A DNA stretch of 64,000 nucleotides from Fibrobacterota bacterium (lineage in GTDB: Bacteria > Fibrobacterota > Fibrobacteria > UBA11236), in assembly GCA_947466585.1 (NCBI GenBank), contig CANIEU010000004.1, positions 1 to 64,000 of the forward strand, in the 5' to 3' direction. Of this stretch, positions 1 through 28,308 are shown one piece after another. The translations under genes and the position numbers were made by a program. The notes beneath the pieces were generated by a model. The model was given only the letters and a program-made list of their open reading frames with translations, made no database searches and was not told where the DNA came from. The stretch's first letter is position 1; each line of letters opens with the position of its first letter.

Positions 1-426
1 CTCCCCGAGGTCGCCCCCAACCACGTCCAGAACTTCCTCGACCTCGCGCGCGCAGGGTTCTACGACAACACCAAATTCCATCGCGTCATTCCTGGATTCA
101 TGATCCAGGGCGGTGACCCGAACAGCAAGCAGGACGACCGCCGCCTCCATGGCACGGGCGGTTCCGGCAAAAACGTGAAGGCCGAGTTCAACGCGACCAA
201 GCATGTGCGCGGCATCGTGTCGGCGGCCCGTTCGTCGAACCCCGATTCGGCCTCGTCGCAGTTCTTCATCATGGTGGCCGACTCCGGTCATCTCGACGGC
301 CAGTACAGCGCTTTCGGCAAGGTCGTGTCGGGCATCGAAGTCGCCGACAAGATCGTGGCCGAAAAGACCGACCACCGCGACAATCCGGTGGAGCCCGTGT
401 CGATCACGGTGAAGGTGGTTGATTAG
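1..426 (+). CDS. Cyclophilin-type peptidyl-prolyl isomerase (5' truncated)
   Basis: The frame is open from the first base, so the N-terminus lies outside the window. Cyclophilins catalyse cis-trans isomerisation of X-Pro bonds during folding. Visible family motifs are FHRVIPGFMIQGGDP, which carries the catalytic Arg, then GTGGSGKNVKAEF, the substrate-pocket block SASSQFFIMV, and LDGQYSAFGKVVSGIEV. The short loops fit a bacterial single-domain enzyme. Whether it is cytoplasmic or periplasmic cannot be told without the N-terminus. The TAG stop forms part of a degenerate GGTAGAC repeat that continues into the intergenic region. Confidence 0.93.
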   Translation, partial: LPEVAPNHVQNFLDLARAGFYDNTKFHRVIPGFMIQGGDPNSKQDDRRLHGTGGSGKNVKAEFNATKHVRGIVSAARSSNPDSASSQFFIMVADSGHLDGQYSAFGKVVSGIEVADKIVAEKTDHRDNPVEPVSITVKVVD

Positions 427-576
427 ACGGTAGAAGGTAGACGGTAGTCGGTAGCGAAGATACTGACACCCTAAACTGAACCAGAAAAAAGCCCGGCTCT
501 CCGATTGGAGGCCGGGCTTTTTGTTTCCGGAGTTATCGGATAGGCAGTATGGAATCCTCTACCGTCTACCTACTCG
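425..576. repeat. Inverted degenerate GGTAGAC repeats around a terminator
   Basis: Bases 425-454 repeat the word GGTAGAC/GGTAGTC about four times. Bases 558-576 carry the complementary words (CTACCGTCTACCTAC), so the two arms face each other around the hairpin at 485-523. They lie between two convergent genes. The same word occurs at 4060-4172. Confidence 0.7.
485..523. terminator. Bidirectional intrinsic terminator
   Basis: GCCCGGC (491-497) pairs with GCCGGGC (511-517), extended inside by CTCC/GGAG around a GATT loop. An A-tract precedes it (485-490) and a T-tract follows, so it can end both convergent genes. Confidence 0.9.
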
Positions 577-4059: not shown

Positions 4060-4172
4060 GACGGTAGGCGGTAGACGGTAGACGGTGGCAGGTAGAGAAC
4101 ACAAAACATCTATTACCTGACTTTTATCTCTACCATCTACCGACTACCGTCTACCTACTACCTACTACCTAC
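4060..4172. repeat. Long inverted GGTAGAC/CTACCGT degenerate repeat
   Basis: The left arm (4060-4097) repeats GGTAGAC words and the right arm (4127-4172) repeats CTACCGT/CTACCTA words. The arms are approximate reverse complements and could fold into an imperfect hairpin filling the gap between two co-directional genes. Confidence 0.7.
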
Positions 4173-13779: not shown

Positions 13780-13812
13780 CTGCCTATTGCTCATTGTCTA
13801 TTGTTCATTGTC
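13780..13812 (+). repeat. CTATTGTTCATTGT degenerate repeat in the cysM leader
   Basis: The words CTATTGCTCATTGT and CTATTGTTCATTGT follow each other in the leader between divergent ligA and cysM. It is unrelated in sequence to the other repeat words but similar in size and degeneracy. Confidence 0.6.
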
Positions 13813-14734: not shown

Positions 14735-14843
14735 GTGGAGAGCGGAAAGTTTACAGCTTCCAGCGAACAGCTTTCTTCGATGAATACGCTTTGGAGTTTT
14801 TGTGTTTGTGGTGGCTGTTCGCTGTAAGCTGTCCGCTGTCCAC
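14735..14843. repeat. Inverted AGCGGACAGCTTACAGC repeat between convergent genes
   Basis: The left arm (14735-14771) and the right arm (14814-14843) are reverse complements apart from a 7-nt insertion and three mismatches. The right arm ends exactly at the stop codon of the minus-strand lipoprotein gene. Both arms are built from degenerate AGCTTACAGCGAAC-type words. Confidence 0.75.
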
Positions 14844-15394
14844 TACTTAAAAAACAAATTCATCAGGCTGCCGCCCAATCCACCACCCATGCCGCCCATC
14901 AGCGAGGAGAGATCGATGGCGTGTTTCTCCCGCACCGCGTTCTTCACGAGGCGCGAACCGAATAGGGTCGGCACGGCCACATCGCCGGTGAGTAGAATTT
15001 CGGCGGAACCCGTGCGGCGCATGCTCCGCAGCGCCTTGTTCCAAGCGGTCTGCGGCAGGGTCACATCAAAGGACAGTCCCGTGGTATCGCGTGCACCCAG
15101 TTCAATGCGCCCGGGATTTTTCAGCATTGCCAACGTATCGCCTTCCATCAGCGCCCACAGATGAAGTCCGTCGATCCGCAACTTTTTGCCGTTGGGGTTG
15201 ATCGCGGAGACGGTGATGCGCCAATCGGTCTGGTTTTCCCGGAGCCCCAAAAACTCGATATCGTTGACATGGAAGCTACAGCGGCGCCAGTCGGCGGTCG
15301 TGGGAATGCCGCACCCGGAGAACAACAGGGAAAGGGCGAGGGCGAGCAGAAGCCAGAGACGGTGGGGGGCGGGAGAGCGGAAGCGAGGCAACAT
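14843..15394 (-). CDS. LEA14-like envelope lipoprotein
   Basis: A 183-residue protein with a signal peptide and lipobox LFSGC at about residue 25. The body (DIEFLGLRENQTDWRITVSA, INPNGKKLRIDGLHLWALM, then ARDTTGLSFDVTLPQTAW) resembles the water-stress/LEA14 domain, a fibronectin-like sandwich found in some bacterial lipoproteins. The tail is Gly/Met-rich (SSLMGGMGGGLGGSLMNLFF). Function is unknown; a structural periplasmic role is an inference. Its start overlaps the possible start of the divergent ATP-grasp gene. Confidence 0.65.
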   Translation of the reverse strand: MLPRFRSPAPHRLWLLLALALSLLFSGCGIPTTADWRRCSFHVNDIEFLGLRENQTDWRITVSAINPNGKKLRIDGLHLWALMEGDTLAMLKNPGRIELGARDTTGLSFDVTLPQTAWNKALRSMRRTGSAEILLTGDVAVPTLFGSRLVKNAVREKHAIDLSSLMGGMGGGLGGSLMNLFFK

Positions 15395-26139: not shown

Positions 26140-26760
26140 ATGACCTTCCCTCAAGTTCTCTCCTTGATCCTCGTTCCCATGGCTGTGGCGACAGCCCATG
26201 GATTTTTCACGAACTGGATGGCCGTGCAATTATTGCTCAAGCCCGTCCGGCCGATAAACATCCTCGGATTCAAGATTCAGGGATTGCTGCCGCGTCGGCA
26301 AGCCGAATTGGCTGAGCGTATTTCCGGTGCGATCGCGGAGCGGTTCCTGACGCGCGATGATATCCTCAATTTTATTCGGCAGGTAGATCCAGTCGCTGCG
26401 ATGCGGTCCTTGCTGGTTGAGAAGTGGGACGAGAAGCTTGGCGAAATCATCGACTCCATCCCCATGGCCAAGATGTTCGTGAATCCCGAACGGTTGCAAG
26501 GGATTCGCGATAAGCTCGTCGGCGCGCTTGCTGACGAAGCCGGACCTTTCACCGAGCGCTTGGTGGATAGTCTGGACGGGAAGATTGACCTAAAAGAAAC
26601 CTTGCGCCGCAATATCATGGCGTTCGATGTCTCCGAACTCAACGGAATCATCGAGCAAATCGGCTATCGGGAGTTTCGCGAGATCGCTTGGGTAGGAGCC
26701 GCCATCGGCCTCGGCATCGGCTCGATCCACGCATTGATCAACTGGCTGATTTTCGGATAG
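26140..26760 (+). CDS. DUF445 family membrane protein
   Basis: A 206-residue protein with a membrane helix at each end (~5-35 and ~183-203) and a soluble helical middle. The N-terminus GFFTNWMAVQLLLKPVRP followed by FKIQGLLPRRQAELAE is the diagnostic DUF445/YheB block. The family's function is unknown; members are often linked to the inner membrane and cell envelope. Here the protein is about half the length of full DUF445 proteins. Confidence 0.82.
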   Translation: MTFPQVLSLILVPMAVATAHGFFTNWMAVQLLLKPVRPINILGFKIQGLLPRRQAELAERISGAIAERFLTRDDILNFIRQVDPVAAMRSLLVEKWDEKLGEIIDSIPMAKMFVNPERLQGIRDKLVGALADEAGPFTERLVDSLDGKIDLKETLRRNIMAFDVSELNGIIEQIGYREFREIAWVGAAIGLGIGSIHALINWLIFG

Positions 26761-26768
26761 GGATAAAA

Positions 26769-26847
26769 CATCACAACAACACAACAACAGAGCAATAAAG
26801 CGCGAAGAACCCCTTTTCTATTGCTGTGTTGTTGTGTTGTTGTGATG
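26769..26847. repeat. 29-bp inverted ACAACAAC repeat between convergent genes
   Basis: The arms (26769-26797 and 26819-26847) match at 28 of 29 positions as reverse complements and consist of ACAACA/ACAACAAC words. The right arm encodes the last residues of the symporter (HHNNTTTQQ) and abuts its stop codon. The loop is about 21 nt. Confidence 0.85.
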
Positions 26848-28308
26848 CTCTCCGCTCCGTCCCATTCCCCAATCCAGAAGTTGAGCGATCACCAGCATTG
26901 CCGACATGGAAATCAGCGGATTCCATGTCCAGGCGACAGGGTAGAGCGGCGTCCACATGCCCTCGGGCAGCACGGGTATTTTGACAAAGAGCAACAGGGT
27001 GGCCATGCCGCCGAAGACCGCAGTCATCACCGCGCCGGGGCGGAGATTCGGGCGCAGGAAGGCCAAAAGAAAAAGACCGAGCAACGGGCCGATGAACAGG
27101 GACGTGAAGAACAAGGCCTTCGAGAGAATCGAGATGGTCCCCAGAGCGCAGATGAACGAAGCACCGAGCCCCAGCAGTCCCCACACCAACACCCAACGCC
27201 GCGCGTTCTTCAGATTGATTTCCGCGTCGGTGCGCGACCGCGCGCGCAGGTCTACGACGGTGGTGTTGGAAAGCGCGGTGAGCACCGAACTCAGCGCGCC
27301 CATGTCGGCGGCCAAAATCGCGGCGACGAGCAGCCCCTTCACCCCGATCGGCAGATTGTGGATGATGAACCAGGGGAGCACCTCGTTGACCTTCAGGTCC
27401 GGGATCGCGGCCACGTGCGCGACCTGGAAATACACGTACAAGAACGCTCCGACCGTGAAGAACAGAACGCCGACGCAGATGCCGAGCAGGGAAGAGGTCA
27501 ACGAGGAATAGTTGGCGGAGCGCGTGTCCTTCGTCGACAGATACCGCTGCACGAATTGCTGGTCGCATCCGCGGATCGCCACTTCGAATACCGTGTAGAC
27601 TACCGCCGCGGAAAGAAAATTGCGCTCACTGGAAGGGTCGAATGTGAAGTCGAGCCAGCGGGTTTTCCCTGCTTCCGCCGCCAAGCGCCAGGTTTCCGTA
27701 AAGGAACCGACTCCCTTCGCACAGAAATAAATACAGAGAATACCGCCCCCGAAAAAAATGCAGAACTGGATCACATCCGTCGTGGTTGCGGCCTTGATGC
27801 CTCCGAGCGAGGTATAAAGCATGGCAAAGACGGATAGCGCCACCGCCGCGACCCAGAAAGGCGCTCCGGTCATCTTCATCAGTACGATGGAAGGGCCGTA
27901 AATCAGCATTCCCATTCTGAAAAGCAGATGGCACGAATACAACGATGCCGCGAGCCTGCGAACCGGGCGCGAGAAGCGGATCTCCAACAGTTCGTAGGCA
28001 GACCTTGTTCCGCTGGCCCGGAAGCGGGGAATGAAGAAAACGCCCACGATGACGATGGCTGTAAGGGAGCCGAAGTTCAACATGAGCAGGCGCATGTCGT
28101 TGCCGTAGGCTTCGGCGGGGTATCCTAGAAAGGTGTTCGCGCTTACGGAGGTCGCGATCAGCGAAATACCGACGGCCAGCCACGGCATATTGCCGCCGCC
28201 GAACATGAAATCTTTGAAGTTTTTGTTTTTGCGGGAGAAGTAAACGCCGACGCCTGCCATGGCGGCGAAATACACGAAGACCACCGCCCAATCCCAGATC
28301 GAGAACAT
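26818..28308 (-). CDS. Sodium:solute symporter (SSS family)
   Basis: A 496-residue protein with about 13 membrane helices. Family landmarks are ISLIATSVSANTFLGYPAEA in TM2, YTSLGGIKAATTTDVIQF in TM5-6, and RGCDQQFVQRYLSTKD. It is probably a Na+-driven carrier of a sugar, amino acid or carboxylate; the substrate is unknown. The C-terminal HHNNTTTQQ is encoded by the inverted repeat and is probably functionless. It follows a GAF-domain gene by 12 bp, so the two are likely an operon. Confidence 0.9.
   Translation of the reverse strand: MFSIWDWAVVFVYFAAMAGVGVYFSRKNKNFKDFMFGGGNMPWLAVGISLIATSVSANTFLGYPAEAYGNDMRLLMLNFGSLTAIVIVGVFFIPRFRASGTRSAYELLEIRFSRPVRRLAASLYSCHLLFRMGMLIYGPSIVLMKMTGAPFWVAAVALSVFAMLYTSLGGIKAATTTDVIQFCIFFGGGILCIYFCAKGVGSFTETWRLAAEAGKTRWLDFTFDPSSERNFLSAAVVYTVFEVAIRGCDQQFVQRYLSTKDTRSANYSSLTSSLLGICVGVLFFTVGAFLYVYFQVAHVAAIPDLKVNEVLPWFIIHNLPIGVKGLLVAAILAADMGALSSVLTALSNTTVVDLRARSRTDAEINLKNARRWVLVWGLLGLGASFICALGTISILSKALFFTSLFIGPLLGLFLLAFLRPNLRPGAVMTAVFGGMATLLLFVKIPVLPEGMWTPLYPVAWTWNPLISMSAMLVIAQLLDWGMGRSGEHHNNTTTQQ

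Follow-up and report, generated by a model that had tools for sequence, protein, structure and literature searches.

The inverted repeat that lies between a DUF445 gene and a sodium:solute symporter gene in the window, the 64,000-nucleotide stretch of DNA analysed here, is one of dozens of border brackets, inverted arrays of tandem words that edge a single intergenic gap. The brackets have one polarity, hug the gene borders, use one word class per gap and are concentrated between convergent genes, and in convergent gaps brackets and intrinsic terminators are nearly exclusive. This mutual exclusion provides a direct test, and the symporter tail is an example of repeats creating new protein ends.

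The focal hairpin and the bracket family

The DUF445 and symporter ORFs are convergent, and both families were confirmed by Pfam. The preliminary description had reported a 29-bp near-perfect inverted repeat between them, which our measurements bore out: the arms are 29 nt each, 21 nt apart and 97% complementary (28/29). It had also proposed that one arm makes the symporter C-terminus. Indeed, the codons for HHNNTTTQQ and two of the three bases of the stop codon lie inside the right arm, with the third base in the loop (Table 1). The focal word is a period-8 tandem (octamer). As an inverted repeat, the hairpin scores 26, and scores of at least 25 were reached 7 times in 760 kb of the genome, compared with 0 in two shuffled copies; at a threshold of 14, there were 55 inverted repeats against a mean of 1.0 in the two shuffles. 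RNA folding of the two strands yielded z = -9.7 and -10.0, and 0 of 200 shuffles were as good. The focal hairpin is not due to chance. No terminator-like site (a short GC-rich stem followed by a U-tract) was present within 26600-27000, and an Rfam scan of the window returned four tRNAs and nothing else.

Table 1. Positions of the focal hairpin, its flanking genes and further brackets in the window
Feature	Position	Strand	Remarks
DUF445 gene (PF04286)	26140-26760	+	stop 8 nt ahead of left arm
Left arm	26769-26797	+	octamer class; outward reading CATCACAACAACACAACAACAGAGCAATA
Loop between arms (21 nt)	26798-26818		last base (26818) completes the symporter stop codon as its third base
Right arm	26819-26847	-	outward reading (- strand) CATCACAACAACACAACAACACAGCAATA; 28/29 complementary to left arm
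Symporter codons HHNNTTTQQ and stop	26818-26847	-	made by right arm; orthologs without
Sodium:solute symporter gene (PF00474)	26818-28308	-	ORF call and Pfam
Bracket, GTAGACG class, convergent genes	426-572		loop with GC-rich hairpin and T-run (intrinsic terminator)
Bracket, GTAGACG/CTACCGT heptamers	4063-4162		arms 4063-4098 and 4127-4162
Bracket, AGCGAAC/AGCTTAC class	14741-14844		arms 14741-14771 and 14814-14844

When one octamer arm was compared with the whole genome (G000; 2.24 Mb in 28 contigs), allowing up to 3 mismatches, 36 matches were found against 6 with the reversed pattern. Many of these matches face each other in pairs, separated by some 25-90 nt; the arm end towards the loop reads TATTG in the octamer elements inspected. 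For a survey of brackets, 859 kb (38%) of the genome was taken, with genes called by a home-made script. It yielded 64 cases in which degenerate 7/8-mer arrays form an inverted pair at the two edges of one intergenic gap. The genome holds at least 8 word classes, each composed of constant and variable positions; beside the octamer they include the heptamer classes AATGAGA, AAATNNG, GTAGNNG, AGTGNNT, AGCNNAC, CAATGNN and CRGTNNA, all of them picked by eye from the very sequence on which they were then tested. Intergenic sequence (86 kb) contained 82 period-7 and 32 period-8 arrays, compared with 3 and 4 after shuffling; coding sequence (about 773 kb) contained 30 and 17, compared with 34 and 25.

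The placement of the arrays follows a set of rules. Among 69 neighbouring pairs of same-class arrays, scored independently of gene calls, 64 read outward then inward, none showed the reverse order, 4 were ++ and 1 was --. A further 152 word clusters had no partner, many of which are probably chance overlaps of the chosen words. One heptamer array in the window, CTATTGCTCATTGT at 13784-13812, likewise has no partner arm. Of 46 gaps bordered on each side by class words, 44 had the same class on both, whereas 2000 permutations gave a mean of 7.6 and a maximum of 18. Among gaps of 30-500 nt, brackets occupied 17 of 69 convergent, 24 of 301 tandem and 3 of 98 divergent ones (p = 3e-5 for convergent). 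Class D showed its own convergent excess (7/9 versus 10/35, p = 0.017). Octamer counts, this one included, are biased upward, since about 99 kb of the surveyed sequence had been chosen for its octamer matches.

In the 44 bracketed gaps, an arm mostly starts within about 20 nt of the predicted gene end. It extends over the 3' coding end in 12 of them, in agreement with the earlier proposal that such repeats rewrite protein ends. Where a bracket lies in a tandem gap, its upstream arm comes after a stop codon and its downstream arm ahead of a start codon, after a pyrimidine-rich leader (judged by eye from 30 leaders; called start codons are uncertain). The motif TGTGTTC/GAACACA lies at the loop edge in 8 of 64 loops, compared with 0.4 expected. 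We also noticed a motif, TTTGTGTTC / GAACACAAA, adjoining arms of several word classes in loops of this genome, for instance at C3:188966, C4:84469 and C8:57558.

Related genomes and the origin of the arms

The symporter was found in 39 and DUF445 in 13 of 41 genomes searched. By coordinates, the two genes adjoin and converge in the window's genome and in the three genus-mates; in the remaining genomes with both, the best matches lie on different contigs. The HHNNTTTQQ tail was seen at a single symporter ORF end, the window's own, among 110; these ends come from two overlapping sets, one of 30 loci (39 genomes had a match) and one of 80 (95 loci were found). At the DUF445-symporter junction, G001 carries a TTCGACTCCGCTCA hairpin, G003 carries a palindrome, GTAGGGGCGAATAA/TTATTCGCCCCTAC, which in addition encodes the last residues of the protein, and in G002 the two genes overlap by 9 nt. 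Thus, as the preliminary description anticipated, orthologs lack the tail and have another hairpin word or none at the junction, so that the site persists while the word changes; conservation of the same tail and arms in distant orthologs, which it named as contrary evidence, was not seen. At two convergent sites with the focal octamer in the window's genome, G001 has the different hairpin word TTCGACTCCGCTCA. The octamer pattern matched 15 places in the window's genome and 0 in 149 other genomes of the phylum, and the class A pattern matched 20 places and one elsewhere. The focal word is confined to this species among the genomes searched. A strict octamer-hairpin pattern had no match in a genome-contig collection that may not contain the window's own genome.

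Complementarity between the borders of one gap reached a score of 12 or more in 47 of 383 gaps of the window's genome, some of the 47 being classical terminators. The corresponding counts were 4/96 in G001, 0/29 in G002, 0/1 in G003, 3/86 in G004, 0/29 in G007 and 0/50 in G025. Among 57 conserved neighbour pairs, 7 rows (5 gaps) carried arrays, too few and too diverged for the birth of a bracket to be followed from orthologous gaps.

Other architectures were observed in these relatives. Contig C1 of G001 (L094-L105, L112-L113 and L134-L153; for example at 416614) contains about 14 short-loop palindromes with the core GTAGGGGCG or GTAAGGGCG, whose flanks are site-specific yet complementary. Some of them cover both stops of convergent genes and give both proteins the same last codons. 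Arm copying looks more plausible in these palindromes than in the window's genome. On the same contig, for example at 294604, 490637, 639332 and 660245, TTCGACT[A/C]CGCTCA occupies hairpin loops, and the stems vary by site while staying complementary. In G136, which belongs to the same taxonomic class, 38 places match AGTAAAGAGTAAAGAGTAA, the class A pattern written backwards as a control, so a heptamer family of its own seems to be present there. In a sister genus, contig C21 of G004 has AAATTGC/AAATTGA brackets near 76849, 78842 and 115996, alike in architecture and different in alphabet.

The preliminary description further suggested that one arm was copied from the other by a template switch at a stalled fork, a single mutation that would account for both the inverted word pair and the new C-terminus. 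The 28/29 complementarity of the focal arms and the lack of the tail in orthologs would fit such an event, and template switching is known to make perfect stems (PMC8794818, in the part available). An inverted duplication at birth also predicts the class match at 44 of 46 gaps, and a few elements share a variant between their own arms, such as that at C13:15217 (32/32). The family as a whole argues against it. Across the 64 elements, own arms were no more complementary than same-class arms of other elements (p = 0.37 for all classes, p = 0.97 for the octamer class), and words present in exactly two arms were common to own arms 6 times, with 5-6 expected by chance. A single base separates the focal right arm from its partner, and a single base likewise separates it from the left arm of a hairpin 61 kb away (C4:88170); the focal left arm differs from that distant arm by 2 bases. 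The focal word is already present at more than ten other sites. Given this tie and the family-wide lack of arm coherence, arm-from-arm copying is not needed and leaves no trace, and we regard a template switch as an unlikely source of the focal pair. As a general origin of arm likeness it was rejected, both the arm-coherence and the rare-word tests being negative. With regard to a one-armed ancestor, the genus-mates lack both arms and their junctions differ throughout. It is possible that the first element was born by template switching or inverted duplication and that words then turned over within the class, which would explain one class per gap.

Transcript ends and rival explanations

In convergent gaps of 60-250 nt, intrinsic terminators were found in 1 of 17 bracketed and 18 of 28 array-free gaps (p = 0.0001). 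After the array-free gaps were trimmed by 25 nt at each border, 13 of 28 retained a terminator (p = 0.007 versus bracketed). The sole bracketed convergent gap with a terminator, at 426-572 of the window, has it in the loop. For tandem gaps, the figures were 0/24 bracketed and 18/162 (p = 0.14; loop versus trimmed, p = 0.37), and with convergent and tandem gaps combined the deficit in loops versus trimmed gaps gave p = 0.09.

Since bracketed convergent gaps are almost free of intrinsic terminators, the likeliest role of a bracket there would be that of a two-way transcript-end hairpin, grown from arrays and acting in place of a classical terminator by termination or 3'-end protection. Judged from sequence, we give this reading an even chance. 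Arrays would grow by slippage-like addition of words, and pairing would require only a common class, so that the two arms could drift independently. The bracket might be tolerated or kept because it does the terminator's job between convergent genes, and an array spreading over a stop codon would leave the gene ending inside it, as may have happened at the symporter tail. The stable RNA stem on both strands is in favour of a transcript-end role. Against it, the focal site lacks a U-tract terminator, and most of the 44 brackets separate genes read in one direction, which have no need of a two-way terminator, while three others separate divergent genes. Own arms have no extra complementarity and thus give no sign of selection on pairing beyond class. 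The terminator deficit could also be a consequence of brackets arising in very short gaps that never held a terminator, a reading based on orthologous gaps of -9 and -4 nt in relatives. Transcripts might also end in a Rho-dependent way, as a Rho N-terminal domain is encoded in the genome. More tentatively, the words may form a word-independent alphabet, in which any 7/8-mer class would work if both edges match outward. The bracket rather than its sequence would then be selected, as a terminator replacement turning over between species, and quadruplexes would not be the reason why such heptamers exist; we lean against this wider proposal.

The main rival to a transcript-end role is neutral slippage, by which heptamers and octamers expand wherever they are tolerated, position, polarity and class follow from mutation and purifying selection on genes, and the arrays are functionless. 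Such a process fits words that are species-specific, many and unrelated, arms that lack coherence, coding sequence that avoids arrays and divergent promoters that have few, and polymerase slippage has been invoked for heptamer excess in the available parts of two reports (PMC4692102, PMC4679880). By itself, however, it does not account for the 64:0 polarity, the class match in 44 of 46 gaps or the near-absence of terminators from bracketed convergent gaps, and we consider it rather improbable. Still less probable, to the point of being very unlikely, is a foldback- or MITE-like mobile element, in which inverted ends composed of tandem subrepeats would flank a variable middle. The dispersal of class-mates with similar arms through the genome, the orthologous junctions without these elements and the common loop-edge motif would all be expected of one. 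But the loops of class-mates are unalike (mean local score 6.71, versus 6.48 between classes and 6.06 when shuffled), target duplications do not stand out clearly (5/44 share at least 5 flank bases, against 4.5% of cross pairs), and left and right arm types are unlinked across elements (p = 0.94). The RAYT transposase (Y1_Tnp, PF01797) had 0 matches in the window's genome and was present in 1 of 13 genomes searched. On these grounds mobility of the unit was rejected. An invertible promoter was ruled out by argument alone, the arms being imperfect and often between convergent genes.

Comparison with known systems

In REP/REPIN and similar families, the sequence of the whole element is conserved, and REPINs have a RAYT transposase; neither property was found in the brackets of the window's genome. 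These and other stem-loop families resemble the brackets in being dispersed intergenic hairpins, according to the portions available (PMC3116915, PMC3733652, PMC2267715). Hairpins made by template switching have long near-perfect stems like the focal one, but their arms are copies of each other, as far as the available text describes them (PMC8794818), whereas bracket arms vary independently within a class.

Other parallels are found among tandem heptamers. TAACTGA direct repeats occur in Beggiatoaceae, Cyanobacteria and Bacteroidetes (MacGregor 2015, PMC4679880). Like the brackets, they are intergenic tandem heptamers by start codons, some lying over the stop of the upstream gene; unlike them, they consist of one word, mostly in single direct arrays, with one inverted repeat reported in the part of that paper available. 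The GGGAATC / GGGGA(C/T)T heptamers of Xanthomonas and Nostoc are tandem, heterogeneous and intergenic, frequently form inverted pairs (70 cases in Xcc and 75 in Xac), in some cases overlap stop codons and are rare between divergent genes, as given in the accessible sections of Rehm et al. 2015 (PMC4692102). They share placement, polarity and inverted pairing with the brackets, but represent one G-rich quadruplex-forming word, compared with at least 8 classes here, one of them an octamer and most without G-runs. Same-class pairing per gap, independence of the arms and exclusion of terminators are not described for them in those sections (PMC4692102).

Of the traits that mark the GGGAATC kind, 7-nt intergenic units with fixed and variable positions are present in our set, from which the focal 8-mer departs, as are inverted pairs with the word reading outward from ORFs (64/69 +-, 0 -+). 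A quadruplex-capable G-tract is absent: octamer arms contain 6% G, class A 26% and class B 17%, and class A and B words have no G-runs. The architecture is therefore the same, and the repeat family is not. Many words in a single genome, matching of classes and exclusion of terminators were all absent from the literature covered, which was partial. In that literature, border tandem heptamers are known as single words and are explained by properties of the word, such as quadruplexes or a regulator binding site. Here many words, most of them without G-runs, form an architecture published for one G-quadruplex word. That so many words obey one placement rule in one genome suggests that the rule, and not the word, needs explaining.
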